Shown: positions 4,962 to 61,436 of the stretch, in pieces
Layout: each line of letters starts with the position of its first letter
Position numbering within the stretch: the stretch's first letter is position 1
NCBI RefSeq assembly: GCF_021026345.1
Contig: NZ_JAJNCZ010000001.1
Coordinates: forward strand, 620,001-684,000
Length of the DNA stretch: 64,000 bases
Source of the DNA: Rhizobium sp. GN54
Lineage (GTDB): Bacteria > Pseudomonadota > Alphaproteobacteria > Rhizobiales > Rhizobiaceae
Direction of reading: 5' to 3'
Program-made: the position numbers and the translations under genes
Notes under the pieces: model-generated
Told to the model about the DNA's origin: nothing
Seen by the model: the letters and a program-made list of their open reading frames with translations, nothing else
The model's database searches: none

Positions 4962-6949
4962 TCATCGAAATCGGACACTACGCCCTGGTCCTGCTGCTGG
5001 CGACATCGATCGTCCAGTCGCTGCTGCCGCTGGCCGGCACGGTCCGCAACGATCCCGCCCTGATGGCGGTGGCGCCGTCGGCGGCGGTCACGGGTTTTCT
5101 GCTGACCGCCTTTTCCTTCGCCATCCTCACCTTCGCCTACGTGACCTCGGATTTCTCGGTCGCCAACGTCTGGCAGAACTCCCATTCGATGAAGCCGATG
5201 ATCTACAAGATCTCCGGCGTCTGGGGGAACCATGAAGGCTCGATGATGCTCTGGCTGCTCATCCTGACCTTCTTCAGCGCACTGGTGGCGACCTTCGGCG
5301 GCAACCTGCCGGAACGGCTGCGGGCGAACGTTCTCGCCGTGCAGGGCTGGATCACCACCGCCTTCGGCCTGTTCATCCTCCTGACCTCCAATCCCTTCCT
5401 GCGGCTCGACCCGGCGCCGGGCGAGGGGCAGGACCTCAACCCGATCCTGCAGGACGTCGGGCTCGCGATCCATCCGCCGCTGCTCTACCTCGGCTATGTC
5501 GGCTTCTCCGTCTGCTTCTCCTTTGCCATCGCGGCGCTGATCGACGGGCGGATCGACGCCGCCTGGGCGCGCTGGGTGCGGCCCTGGGCGTTGATGGCCT
5601 GGAGCTTTTTGACCGCCGGTATCGCCATGGGCTCCTACTGGGCCTATTATGAACTCGGCTGGGGCGGCTGGTGGTTCTGGGACCCGGTCGAGAACGCCTC
5701 CTTCATGCCCTGGCTCGCCGGCACAGCCCTTTTGCACTCCGCGCTGGTGATGGAGAAGCGCGAGGCGCTGAAGATCTGGACCGTGCTGCTGTCGATCCTG
5801 ACGTTTTCGCTGTCGCTGCTCGGCACCTTCCTCGTCCGCTCGGGCGTGCTCACCTCCGTGCACGCCTTTGCGACCGACCCGACCCGCGGCGTGTTCATCC
5901 TGACGATCCTCATCATCTTCATCGGCGGCGCGCTGTCGCTCTTCGCCCTGCGTGCGCCGACGCTGAAGGCCGGCGGCCTGTTCGCGCCGATCTCGCGCGA
6001 GGGCGCGCTCGTCTTCAACAACCTGATCCTGACGACGGCGGCCGCGACCGTCCTGACCGGCACGCTCTATCCGCTGGTGCTGGAGGCGCTGACGGGCGAG
6101 AAGATCTCGGTCGGTGCCCCCTTCTTCAACCTGACCTTCGGCCTCCTGATGCTGCCGCTGCTGCTGGCGGTGCCGTTCGGCCCTCTGCTCGCCTGGAAGC
6201 GCGGCGATCTGCTGGCCGCGGGCCAGCGGCTGTTCGCGGCCGTCGGCATCGGGCTCTTTCTCGCGGCGATCGCGCAGTGGTCACAGGGCGGCGGGCCGGT
6301 GCTCGCCTATTTCGGCCTTGCGATCGGCTTCTACATGCTGGCCGGCGCGGTGACCGACCTGGCGCTGCGGTCCGGCGTCGGCAAGGTGACGGCAGGCGTG
6401 GCGCGCCGGCGCCTGTTCGGGCTGCCGGGCTCGGCCTTCGGTACTGCACTTGCCCATTTCGGCGTCGGCGTCACCGTGATCGGCATCGTCGCCGTCACCG
6501 CCTTCGAGACCGAGCACGTGGTCGAGATGAAGCCGGGCGCGAGCGTTGAGGCCGGGGGTTACACGCTGACCTTCGACGGCATGCGCCAGGGGCGCGGGCC
6601 GAACTTCACCGAGGAGAGCGGCCATTTCACCATCGCCCGCGCCGGTGTCTCGAAGGGCGAGGTCTGGTCGTCCAAGCGGCTCTACACGGCCCGGCGCATG
6701 CCGACGACCGAGGCCGGCATCCGCACCTTCGGCTTCAGCCAGCTCTACGTCTCCCTCGGCGACGCCATGAGCGACGGCGGCATCGTCGTCCGCGTCTGGT
6801 GGAAGCCGATGATCCTGTGCATCTGGATCGGTTCGCTGATCATGATGGCGGGCGGCTTCGTGTCGCTGTGCGACCGCCGGCTGCGCATCGGCGCGCCGCA
6901 GGGTGCGCGCAAGGCAAGGCCGGTTCCGGCGCTGGGGGCGGCTGAATGA
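4958..6949 (+). CDS. ccmF: Haem lyase subunit CcmF (CycK)
   Basis: This is the 663-residue polytopic haem ligase of system I cytochrome c biogenesis. It contains the periplasmic tryptophan-rich WWD segment ([16 protein letters not shown]), conserved periplasmic histidines, and a C-terminal soluble periplasmic domain before a last membrane helix. I place the start at the TTG at 4958, which overlaps the ccmE stop as TTGA and is preceded by GGCAAGGAG. The protein then begins [12 protein letters not shown], as expected for the family; reading further upstream would run out of frame through ccmE. The gene ends in ATGA shared with ccmH. Confidence 0.94.
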
Positions 6950-7587
6950 TGCGGTGGTCGCCCCTCCAGTTCCGGTACTTGCCCCTCACCCTAGCCCTCT
7001 CCCCGCAAGCGGGGAGAGGGGACGTGCCCCATGCGACGCGATCGTCCTTCTCCCCGCTTGCGGGGAGAAGGTGCCGGCAGGCGGATGAGGGGCGTCGTGG
7101 CATATTCGCCAGGCTGGCATTGATCCTCTTCCTGCTTCTTTCGCCCCTGCCGGCCTTCGCCGTCAACCCGGACGAGGTATTGGCCGACCCGGCGCTGGAG
7201 GCCCGCGCGCGGGCGCTTTCGGCGCAGTTGCGCTGCATGGTCTGCCAGAACCAGTCGATCGACGATTCCAACGCGGAACTGGCCCGCGACCTGCGCGTGC
7301 TCGTGCGCGAGCGCATCGTCAGCGGCGACAGCGACGAGGCGGTGATCGACTACGTCGTCTCGCGCTACGGCGAATTCGTGCTGCTGAAACCGCGGCTGCG
7401 GGGCGAGACGCTGCTGCTCTGGGGCGCGCCGATCGTGCTCTTTCTGGGCGGAGCTATCGCGATGATGCTGTTCGTGCGCCGGCGCGCCGGCAAGGCGGTC
7501 GGCGAGCCGCTGACGGCGGAGGAAAAGGCGGCGCTGGAGAAGATCGTCGCCGGGAGCCAGGCAAAGGGTGCGGGCGGGGAAAGCTGA
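6946..7587 (+). CDS. ccmH: Cytochrome c maturation protein CcmH (CycL) with a repeat-derived N-terminal extension
   Basis: CcmH is the membrane-anchored thiol-disulfide protein that keeps the apocytochrome CxxCH motif reduced. The LRCMVCQNQ motif (C97 and C100 in the full reading) and a membrane helix near residues 150-170 are present. The ATG at 6946 overlaps the ccmF stop by four bases, as elsewhere in this operon. However, a 113-base palindromic repeat (6981-7093) lies between this start and the signal peptide, so about 50 extra residues precede the hydrophobic core (about 56-70, cleavage after AFA at 72). Either the extension is made and tolerated, or translation restarts at an internal TTG near 7120. 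The rest is normal in length. Confidence 0.9.
6981..7093. repeat. Palindromic repeat element inside the 5' end of ccmH
   Basis: The element begins GCCCCTCACC and ends with the near inverse GATGAGGGGC. It contains two strong hairpins: perfect 12-base arms at 6995-7006 and 7009-7020, and perfect 11-base arms at 7047-7057 and 7060-7070. The arms of the two hairpins are nearly the same sequence (CTCCCCGC/GCGGGGAG). It resembles the short dispersed palindromic repeats common between genes in Rhizobiales. Here it is read through as coding sequence with no stop codon in the ccmH frame. A related element lies between iolD and iolC near 55950-56055. Confidence 0.85.
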
Positions 7588-31852: not shown

Positions 31853-31899
31853 GCCTTGTTCTCGTGTCCTCGCAGACCCTGCGAGCCGACCCGATCGGG

Positions 31900-31978
31900 G
31901 ACGCCGCCCCGGGAGTTGGGGGGCGGGACGGCGTCCCTTTGCCGCTACGCCGCAGCGGCAAACCGGTCAGGATGGGCG
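31900..31978. repeat. Direct repeat copy 1 (79 bases), doxX-tail and terminator type
   Basis: This copy matches 32045-32123 over 79 bases with only a few changes. It contains two hairpins: GACGCCGCCCC with its near inverse ending GGACGGCGTC, and TGCCGCT/AGCGGCA. Read on the minus strand, the right part could encode AHPDRFAAAA and then a stop, a relative of the DoxX C-terminus. Confidence 0.85.
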
Positions 31979-32044
31979 ATGCCAGGAGGAGGAGGGTGTC
32001 GAGGGGACCGAACCGATTCGGGATCGGAAGCGGAATGCGATCAG

Positions 32045-32123
32045 GACGCCGCCCCGGGAGTTGGGGGGCGGGGCGGCGTCCCTTTGCCGCTACGCCGTAG
32101 CGGCAACCGGTTCGGGATGGGCG
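32045..32123. repeat. Direct repeat copy 2 (79 bases) overlapping the 3' end of doxX
   Basis: The second copy starts 145 bases after the first. Its right 34 bases (32090-32123) form the last codons and stop of the doxX-like gene. The left part, beyond the stop on the minus strand, folds as a GC-rich hairpin and may act as that gene's terminator. Confidence 0.85.
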
Positions 32124-38322: not shown

Positions 38323-38436
38323 CCGTCATGCCGGACTTGATCCGGCATCCAGCAGCGCCGCGTCTGCGGCGCGGGAAAAGCTCTTTCGCGCAAGGACTTG
38401 CGCGGGCTGGATCCCGGATCAGGTCCGGGATGACGG
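38323..38436. repeat. GTCAT-type palindromic repeat, 114 bases
   Basis: This element starts CCGTCATGCCGGACTTG and ends GTCCGGGATGACGG, so the ends are inverse to each other. Internal hairpins include GCGCCGCG/CGGCGCGG-type arms and CGCGCAAG-GA-CTTGCGCG, a perfect stem. Inverted, it aligns along its whole length with the copy at 45572-45687. It lies between convergent genes. Confidence 0.88.
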
Positions 38437-45571: not shown

Positions 45572-45687
45572 CCGTCATGCCGGCCTCCGAGCCGGCATCC
45601 AGCGCGCGCAAGTCCTTGCGCGGAAAGAGCATTCTCCGAACCGCAGACGCGGTGCCGCTGGACCCCGGATCTAGTCCGGGGAGACGG
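45572..45687. repeat. GTCAT-type palindromic repeat, 116 bases
   Basis: Starts CCGTCATGCCGG and ends GTCCGGGGAGACGG. It aligns, in opposite orientation, with the copy at 38323-38436, including the perfect stem CGCGCAAG-TC-CTTGCGCG and the GAAAGAGC segment. It lies between convergent gst and DUF2147 genes. Confidence 0.87.
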
Positions 45688-53902: not shown

Positions 53903-53991
53903 CCGTCATCCTCGGGCTTGTCCCGAGGATCCACGCACCTTTCTCAAAGAGCGACGTGGACGGATCCTCGGGACAAGCCCGAGGATGACGG
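53903..53991. repeat. GTCAT-type palindromic repeat, 89 bases, between iolD and iolE
   Basis: The ends are inverse (CCGTCATCCTCGGGCTTGTC and GACAAGCCCGAGGATGACGG), giving a perfect stem of 20 bases or more. The inside repeats the TTTCTCAAAGAG-type core flanked by TCCACG and CGTGGA. It is a shorter relative of the elements at 38323 and 45572. Confidence 0.9.
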
Positions 53992-60401: not shown

Positions 60402-61436
60402 TCAGAGGATGAAGTCGCTCGAATAGTACTTCGTCAGGTTGGCCTCGATCTGGAAGTCGGCCCGGCCGTCGCCGTCGACGTCGCCGGAGATGATGTGGCC
60501 GGAGTAGCGCAACTCGCCTGCCTTGTCGTGGAAGGACTGGTTGCCGATGAAGGTGAAGGACTGGTTGCCGCTCCTGTTGACGTTGGCGTCGATGTTGCTG
60601 AGATCGATCCTGTCGTTCTCCGAGCGGTGGAAGTCCTCGATCACGTCGCGCTTGCTGCCGACGGCGGAATCCTTGATCGAATCGAAGATGAAGTGATCGG
60701 CGCCGTAGCCTCCGTCGAGAATGTCCATGCCGCGGCCGCCGACGAGGTCGTCGTTGCCGTTGCCGCCCAGGAGTTCGTCGCTGCCCGAGCCGCCGTAGAG
60801 ATAGTCGTTGCCGCTGCGCCCCGACAGGATGTCGTTGCCGCTGCCGCCTTCCAGATCGTTGGCGCCGGAATTGCCGCGCAGCGTGTCGTCATAGCCCGTG
60901 CCGATGGCGTTCTCGATGCTGGAGAAGGTCTCCTTGTGCGAGCCGACCTTGGCGTATTTGCTGTTGAGGTCCACGAAGACGCCGCGGCCTTCCAGGTCGC
61001 TGTCGTCCTGCAGTTCGTAGCTCAGCGTGTCGCGGCCGGAACCGCCGCTGAAATAGTTGTAGTAGCCGGCCGAGAGGAACGTGTCGTCGTCGTCGCCGCC
61101 GTAGTAGTCGCTCTGCAGCGTCAGCACCTCGAACCAGTCGTCGCCCGAGCCGCCATAGACCTTGTCGTAATAGTCGTCGTCGATGGCATAGCCGTTGTGG
61201 ATATAGGTGTCGTTGCCGGAATCGAGGTAGATCTTGTTGCCGCCCTCGAACCAGTTCTTCACATAGTCGTTGCCGCTGCCCGCCTCGACGTAGTTGAAGC
61301 CGCCGTAGGAACTGACGAGGTTGAGGTAGATCTTGTCGTTGCCGCCATAGGTGAAGATGTCCACTTCGTCGCGGCCATCCTGGTAGACGGTATTGCGTCC
61401 GCTGGTGCCGTAGTAGGTGTAGCCGTTCCAACCCAT
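60402..61436 (-). CDS. RTX-type calcium-binding protein, likely type I secretion substrate
   Basis: A 344-residue acidic protein without signal peptide. Many GGxGxDxLx-type nonapeptides are visible, strongest at about 185-250 (GGSGNDILS, GGSGSDELL, GGRGMDILD), and more tyrosine-rich, looser repeats fill residues 30-150. After the repeats comes a serralysin-like C-terminal domain (DRIDLSNIDANV, GDVDGDGRADFQIE) ending in SSDFIL, a usual uncleaved type I secretion signal. The protein probably binds calcium outside the cell; no enzyme domain is seen. No secretion genes are nearby. Confidence 0.88.
   Translation of the reverse strand: MGWNGYTYYGTSGRNTVYQDGRDEVDIFTYGGNDKIYLNLVSSYGGFNYVEAGSGNDYVKNWFEGGNKIYLDSGNDTYIHNGYAIDDDYYDKVYGGSGDDWFEVLTLQSDYYGGDDDDTFLSAGYYNYFSGGSGRDTLSYELQDDSDLEGRGVFVDLNSKYAKVGSHKETFSSIENAIGTGYDDTLRGNSGANDLEGGSGNDILSGRSGNDYLYGGSGSDELLGGNGNDDLVGGRGMDILDGGYGADHFIFDSIKDSAVGSKRDVIEDFHRSENDRIDLSNIDANVNRSGNQSFTFIGNQSFHDKAGELRYSGHIISGDVDGDGRADFQIEANLTKYYSSDFIL

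Follow-up and report, generated by a model that had tools for sequence, protein, structure and literature searches.

Palindromic repeats lie in frame ahead of the CcmH signal peptide in core Rhizobiaceae and appear to have been captured there many times

In Rhizobium sp. GN54, a dispersed repeat with two palindromes occupies the beginning of ccmH, in frame and free of stop codons, between the overlap of this gene with ccmF and the core of the signal peptide. Palindromic repeats appear to have been captured at this position on many separate occasions in the core Rhizobiaceae. Judged by nucleotide similarity, they belong to at least two distinct families, and they are found in both orientations.

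The explanation that we consider likely, on comparative sequence grounds, is the following. Translation of ccmH would begin at the ATGA overlap, or no later than a GTG at 7024, so that the repeat, in full or by half, would form the n-region of the CcmH signal peptide on the cytoplasmic side. It would occupy the usual place of such palindromes, shortly past the stop codon that ends the preceding gene, a place that would be coding here because ccmH begins inside the ccmF stop codon. Palindromic repeats would have entered the ccmF/ccmH spot many times in the core Rhizobiaceae, with just the in-frame, stop-free copies surviving. The reason for their tolerance would be that an n-region has no fixed structure and is lost once signal peptidase cleaves behind A-x-A.

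The repeat at the start of ccmH

The following features were placed in the window, that is, the whole stretch of 64,000 nucleotides that was analysed.

4962..6949, plus strand: ccmF, the first gene of the overlapping pair (its start is approximate; the open reading frame is listed from 4499)
6946..6949, plus strand: ATGA overlap (ccmF stop TGA at 6947-6949, ccmH ATG at 6946)
6946..7587, plus strand: ccmH, a stop-free open reading frame of 213 amino acids including the extension
6979..6981, plus strand: in-frame TTG on the repeat's 5 prime edge, a candidate start
6981..7093, plus strand: dispersed double-palindrome repeat, 113 nt, in the ccmH frame (from its arms, genome copies and fold)
6995..7020, plus strand: first palindrome, 26 nt (inverted-repeat analysis)
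7024..7026, plus strand: in-frame GTG within the repeat, with GAGG 4 nt upstream
7046..7071, plus strand: second palindrome, 26 nt (inverted-repeat analysis)
7102..7161, plus strand: last 20 leader codons, the signal-peptide core, ending in P-L-P-A-F-A
7120..7122, plus strand: in-frame TTG after the repeat, leaving 14 leader residues

As a preliminary description of this DNA had proposed, ccmH can start at the ATG of the overlap. A second ATG follows directly at 6949, and among the named loci surveyed below a ccmH start at the ccmF stop or one codon later is the rule. The Pfam domain CcmH (PF03918) spans residues 61-200 of the window open reading frame (E 2e-52), and its C-x-x-C is present as RCMVC. 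Counted from 6946, about 56 residues stand ahead of the leucine-rich core (the earlier estimate was about 50 before the hydrophobic core), and the mature protein is predicted to start at 7162. An AlphaFold2 model built on a 12-sequence alignment is weak overall (mean pLDDT 58, pTM 0.26); it gives residues 1-49 a pLDDT below 50 and predicts a helix at residues 49-65.

The length of 113 nt is the distance between the outer edges of two outer arms (6981-6991 and 7083-7093), and the two palindromes are 92% complementary to each other. Arms, palindromes and stop-free frame confirm that a double-hairpin element lies open in the ccmH frame, as first described. The RNA of 6946-7140 folds at -101 kcal/mol (z -4.1), a value that none of 200 shuffles matches. 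Rfam returned three weak matches only, each far under the gathering score. The element may be a form of RIME1, which carries two large palindromes. Rhizobial dispersal and two large palindromes were both found for the window repeat, and its location is inside the ccmH open reading frame instead of intergenic. What marks a protein-coding palindrome was likewise found: a frame kept free of stops in a conserved gene, relatives without the repeat, and the same repeat elsewhere in the genome.

Searching the GN54 genome (G000) with the element DNA gives 74 matches (E<=1e-3, both strands), a number that includes partial hits and thus exceeds that of distinct copies. The best other copies spanning the element are at most 89% identical, and shorter partial copies reach 100%. 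The 30 best copies were taken with their flanks and open frames were scored by codon usage, an annotation-free heuristic; 24 of them have at most 12 nt of repeat under a coding-like frame. Such a repeat normally lies between genes. All or most of the repeat lies under such a frame, beyond ccmH, in the copies L114, L126, L130 and L133, where the genes have available start codons further downstream. Coding-like frames often stop within a few tens of bases from the repeats, a placement that PMC3733652 describes for REPs. In another copy (L118, C23:519886-519999), about half of the sequence is under a coding-like frame on the other strand. Searches of a plasmid collection gave nine matches, six without a gene under the match and three unannotated, and, among the 40 matches listed out of 101 records, 37 without a gene and three unannotated; with an incomplete gene table, both are weak indications. 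At one intergenic site (L115), the flanks align at 96% and 91% between GN54 and its congener G005, and the G005 sequence enclosed by them has no match to the repeat, so that a gain, loss or replacement of the repeat probably separates the two species.

The window contains other repeats. Two direct copies of 80 nt, 93% identical, lie at 31899-31978 and 32044-32123, and a long hairpin at 53903-53991 has 43-nt arms that are 86% complementary across a 3-nt gap. Two inverted copies of a further repeat of about 100 nt are about 7.2 kb apart (38323-38420 and 45589-45687). Repeats with a 27-nt period at 60720-61303 are, we presume, perhaps glycine-rich calcium-binding repeats encoded on the minus strand.

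Long leaders and repeat families among relatives

Three of seven genus genomes carry a repeat at ccmH (G000, G005 and G002), and in G002 it has diverged and expanded, giving a leader of 100 codons in which the frame is kept and open. The four others (G001, G003, G004 and G006) have a plain leader of 20 codons without repeat. No relative was found that shares the N-terminal extension and lacks the repeat.

We defined the leader as the segment from the overlap with the ccmF stop to the codon matching window position 7162, and measured it in 85 cases, namely 79 of 80 named loci and six genus genomes; L098 was left out, ccmF being absent from its contig. In 82 cases the leader is a multiple of three in length and stop-free. 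The three out-of-frame leaders (L106, L107 and L110) are all short (74-97 nt), have GTA or CTG as overlap codon, and were excluded from the 82 used further, which contain one short duplicate (L031 and G001 are the same genome, at zero tree distance). These 82 leaders fall into two classes with a gap between them, 60 of 19-38 codons and 22 of 60-111 codons, and all 22 long leaders are stop-free and in frame with the ccmF overlap. An inverted repeat of at least 16 nt is present in each of the 22, those of L076 and L108 being weak ones (E about 0.06). The z-scores for folding of long leaders range from -12.1 to -1.3, the weakest being those of L073, L082, L108, L066 and G002; three of these (L073, -1.3; L082, -1.9; L108, -2.1) are little better than shuffles. 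The overlap codon is other than ATG in 7 of 22 long leaders and 3 of 60 others (Fisher p 0.003, kinship ignored); L095 and L101 have GTA there, with ATG as the next codon.

The coding insertion, first presented as unusual, is not an isolated event but recurs in the core Rhizobiaceae. The 22 of 85 are not a prevalence figure, the 80 named loci being the best matches to the window protein. A sample of one genome per genus from 28 other genera of the family (G012 and G026 excluded, G026 having no usable ccmF/ccmH pair) yielded a single long leader, that of G035, which is 249 nt long, in frame, and resembles L036; the leaders of G007, G010 and G016 are short and out of frame. The phenomenon is therefore a feature of the core Rhizobiaceae and not of the whole family. 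As a control we considered the spacer between ccmH and degP, where 2 of the 67 named loci examined have a match to the long-leader repeats; a long leader, by comparison, is present in 19 of 76 named loci. Repeats of other families in that spacer would escape this comparison.

BLAST among the long leaders separates several groups. The first comprises the window-like repeats of G000, G005, G002 and L067; L084, L090 and L095 are also window-like but in opposite orientation, with 84-86% identity to the minus strand of G000. A second group contains L053, L058, L073, L074, L076, L082, L087, L097 and L108, and may be distantly related to the first. A third consists of L033 and L049, whose repeat region has no match to other groups at E<=1e-4. 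Finally, L036, L066, L080 and L093 have stretches in common among themselves and partly with the first group. The window type (L084 as query) is dispersed in all 12 genomes searched, with just 1-9 matches in four of them, the second type in 9 of 9 and the third in 5 of 5. These queries represented the window, second and third types as distinct from the group of L036, L066, L080 and L093, and the second-type query consisted of the second half of the L076 repeat and part of the signal core.

On a tree of ccmF and ccmH with 81 rows, obtained with a quick method (L052 excluded for its short ccmF), the long leader requires 13 changes, gains or losses, of which at least 11 are forced by branches with at least 95% support. 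Shuffled labels need 19.4 changes on average, and long leaders are therefore also inherited within clades. Near relatives differ in the presence of a long leader, as with L033 (long) and L104 (short). Near relatives may also have different families at the same ccmH position (L082 and L090, L074 and L080), and these pairs look as though one palindrome had replaced another.

Translation, cleavage and constraint

A later start is called usable here if it lies in frame after the repeat, whose edges were set partly by hand, and leaves at least 15 leader residues. Sixteen of the 22 long leaders have no such start. Nine of them (G002, G005, L067, L073, L080, L084, L090, L095 and L108) have no in-frame ATG, GTG or TTG after the repeat; the 68-codon leader of L073 has no start at all after its first codon, and L090 none after its second. 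In the seven others later starts leave just 2-14 residues, and it is solely the 15-residue cut that excludes these seven as late starters. The six leaders with a usable later start (L033, L036, L049, L066, L093 and L097), in which the repeat may be skipped, all share the overlap frame even so. A stretch resembling a Shine-Dalgarno sequence, supplied by the 3 prime arm of the hairpin, lies near an ATG in L036 and L093. In L049 (1851-2048), codon 43, where the repeat ends, is an ATG from which MREV... is read. The normal starts of sister loci in the Agrobacterium clade (L057, L083 and L091) have a similar sequence, and it looks as though the end of the repeat had re-created the former start.

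Two other starts have to be weighed against the overlap. CcmH might start only after the repeat, at TTG 7120 or another codon, the repeat being an untranslated spacer whose openness arose by chance in GC-rich DNA. Openness is indeed weak evidence, since other frames of long-leader DNA are open in 46 of 110 cases, as are those of the own-genome copies in 91 of 174; it is therefore the frame that bears the argument. The six usable starts past the repeat also speak for this scenario, as do passages of PMC3733652 according to which many NH2-terminal REPs may be extragenic, with a misannotated start. However, the existence of short out-of-frame leaders means that frame agreement is not automatic, and no long leader is out of frame. 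An insert ahead of a later-starting gene would keep the frame one time in three, and by our own arithmetic, with changes counted as gains, the chance that all are in frame is about (1/3)^8 to (1/3)^11 for 8-11 gains, the figure of eight corresponding to the changes among leaders without usable later start. Nine of 22 leaders have no start codon past the repeat, yet all 22 share the frame of the overlap. For the window itself, TTG 7120 is CTG in both G005 and G002, and a start near 7120 was rejected because the codon is not conserved and the leader would be too short; nothing was found that proves initiation solely downstream. Going by these sequences, initiation past the repeat cannot account for the overall pattern and seems to us quite improbable. 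Initiation at GTG 7024, with the second half of the repeat alone coding, is unlikely too, if less so. G005 and G002 have a GTG in the corresponding position; the sequence ahead of it is GAGG at a distance of 4 nt in G000 and G005, and GGAGG at 6 nt in G002. However, this codon belongs to the repeat sequence (in L067, GTG is codon 20, with the same motif), so that its conservation does not count as independent evidence. The leaders with a reversed repeat (L084, L090 and L095) have no such GTG, and the first half of the repeat is likewise open and in frame. We thus favour translation from the overlap, and infer that selection has acted on the frame.

The preliminary description expected the extension to hinder export unless it was cleaved or translation began internally. 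The cleavage motif lends hindered export no support: every one of the 82 leaders has alanine at -1, 76 have it at -3, and all 22 long leaders have both. Given this A-x-A, the repeat segment should be cut off, and would be removed with the signal peptide on export. Proline at -6 is found in 20 of 22 long leaders, 8 of 11 intermediate ones (26-54 codons) and 1 of 49 short ones. Among 11 independent pairs it follows leader length in about six and never goes the opposite way (median p 0.03, range 0.03-0.06), which suggests that the c-region of long leaders is closer to the canonical, cleavable form. Whether greater hydrophobicity of the h-region compensates for length was considered and rejected (KD12 2.74 versus 2.79, p 0.46; independent pairs not significant).

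Substitutions were counted by the Nei-Gojobori method in ten pairs, comparing the repeat part with ccmF and mature ccmH. Omega is 0.29-1.07 in the repeat part against 0.06-0.29 in mature ccmH, and protein constraint is therefore weaker in the repeat part, where low dS inflates omega; the highest value, 1.07, belongs to L074-L097, whose repeats are probably not orthologous. Between G000 and G005, dS is 0.024 in the n-region (omega 0.74), whereas ccmF has 0.22 and mature ccmH 0.29, and differences number 1 in 122 bases at 6973-7094, 101 in 1466 for ccmF and 51 in 493 for the rest of ccmH. Lower dS in the repeat part than in either ccmF or mature ccmH recurs in L084-L090 (0.21 versus 0.68-0.82), L084-L095 (0.20 versus 0.69-0.99), L090-L095 (0.25 versus 0.56-0.75), L076-L082 (0.31 versus 0.65-0.80) and both L073 pairs, omega in the repeat part of the low-dS pairs being 0.37-0.82. 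The order is reversed in G000-G002 and G005-G002 (dS 0.84-0.85 in the repeat versus 0.26-0.46; omega 0.29-0.30). Tolerance alone does not explain the low dS within the repeat. Gene conversion from another G000 copy is an unlikely source of the near-identity of G000 and G005, the spanning copies being at most 89% identical. It may have acted in other clades, and the shorter partial G000 copies do reach 100%.

Two functional scenarios bear on these data. The hairpin itself may be selected, a stem after ccmF tuning message stability or CcmH translation; palindromes would then have been recruited and the peptide would be a by-product. This is possible, if on balance unlikely, and is compatible with tolerance of an n-region repeat, not exclusive of it. 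The low dS in the repeat part of close pairs is the main hint, together with the recurrence at ccmH compared with 2 of 67 at the next spacer. Against it, the G000-G002 and G005-G002 values go the opposite way, and L073, L082 and L108 fold little better than shuffles. Pair cells kept by a two-sided change number 1, 6 and 1, and broken ones 19, 53 and 20; covariation was accordingly rejected as proof of the stems. At the intergenic copy L134, a 25-nt deletion between G000 and G005 removed one hairpin, with 1-2 nt indels in or beside the copy, and the other palindrome is intact between the species. Outside ccmH too, then, the repeat keeps stems but not frame (one case), and stem conservation may be a trait of the repeat family or a result of conversion, not a property of this site. 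Slightly more tentative still is the proposal that the overlap is a selected landing site where recruited hairpins tune the CcmH:CcmF ratio, the n-region serving as a coding tolerance zone for mobile RNA structure in an operon without spacers. Alternatively, the repeat-encoded peptide may have gained a targeting or assembly function of its own, which we regard as very improbable: omega is below 1 in nine of ten pairs and proline at -6 tracks long leaders, but the peptides encoded at this position by different families, in either orientation, are unrelated, model confidence is low for residues 1-49, and h-region hydrophobicity is unchanged. The exaptation first suggested for the repeat stands as regards its presence in the ccmH frame, and the weaker constraint and the pLDDT of the extension lend no support to a new function. 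Tolerance of a disposable n-region would remain the reason for its persistence.

Comparison with known palindromic elements

The ccmH case would represent a route for repeats into operons with little room between genes, by way of the dispensable first part of a signal peptide. Its many natural replicates, the nearby species with an empty site and the assayable c-type cytochromes make both the fate of coding palindromes and regulation by hairpins testable. A literature search covering titles and the beginnings of abstracts, with subscription papers mostly outside its scope, returned no report of palindromes in ccmH/cycL.

Among dispersed rhizobial repeats, the Rhizobium-specific intergenic mosaic elements (RIME) are normally intergenic, as outlined in PMC2573895; the repeat described here is similarly dispersed, but its ccmH copy is coding. 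REPINs consist of two inverted repeat units predicted to form a single hairpin, in the account of PMC3116915. Two palindromic units in inverted order are found here as well; in contrast, a search for the RAYT transposase domain Y1_Tnp (PF01797) gave none in G000 and was positive in one of seven genus genomes (G003), and a RAYT was accordingly rejected as the agent that moves the repeats in G000.

REPs, according to passages of PMC3733652, are palindromic doublets located mostly between genes, near the 3 prime end of the upstream open reading frame; some lie within open reading frames, NH2 termini included, and different REPs occupy about the same recB site in two Xanthomonas species. The ccmH repeats resemble such intragenic REPs (GTAG/CGTC) in being palindromic doublets placed behind the upstream gene, the comparison covering these traits. 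The same passages suspect that most NH2-terminal cases are extragenic and reflect wrong start calls. For ccmH, in contrast, the frame, the recurrence across genera and the missing later starts argue for translation.

Rickettsia palindromic elements (RPE), as described in parts of PMC10969869 and PMC3733652, are dispersed palindromes inserted in frame in genes, which is also the situation at ccmH. However, RPE are found in many unrelated genes, whereas at ccmH, in Alphaproteobacteria other than Rickettsia, a single site, the n-region of a signal peptide, has been hit repeatedly by different families. In-frame palindromes are thus already known from RPE and intragenic REPs and, as far as these sources go, what is new is that a single site ahead of a signal peptide has captured them again and again in many species, with at least two families and both orientations represented.
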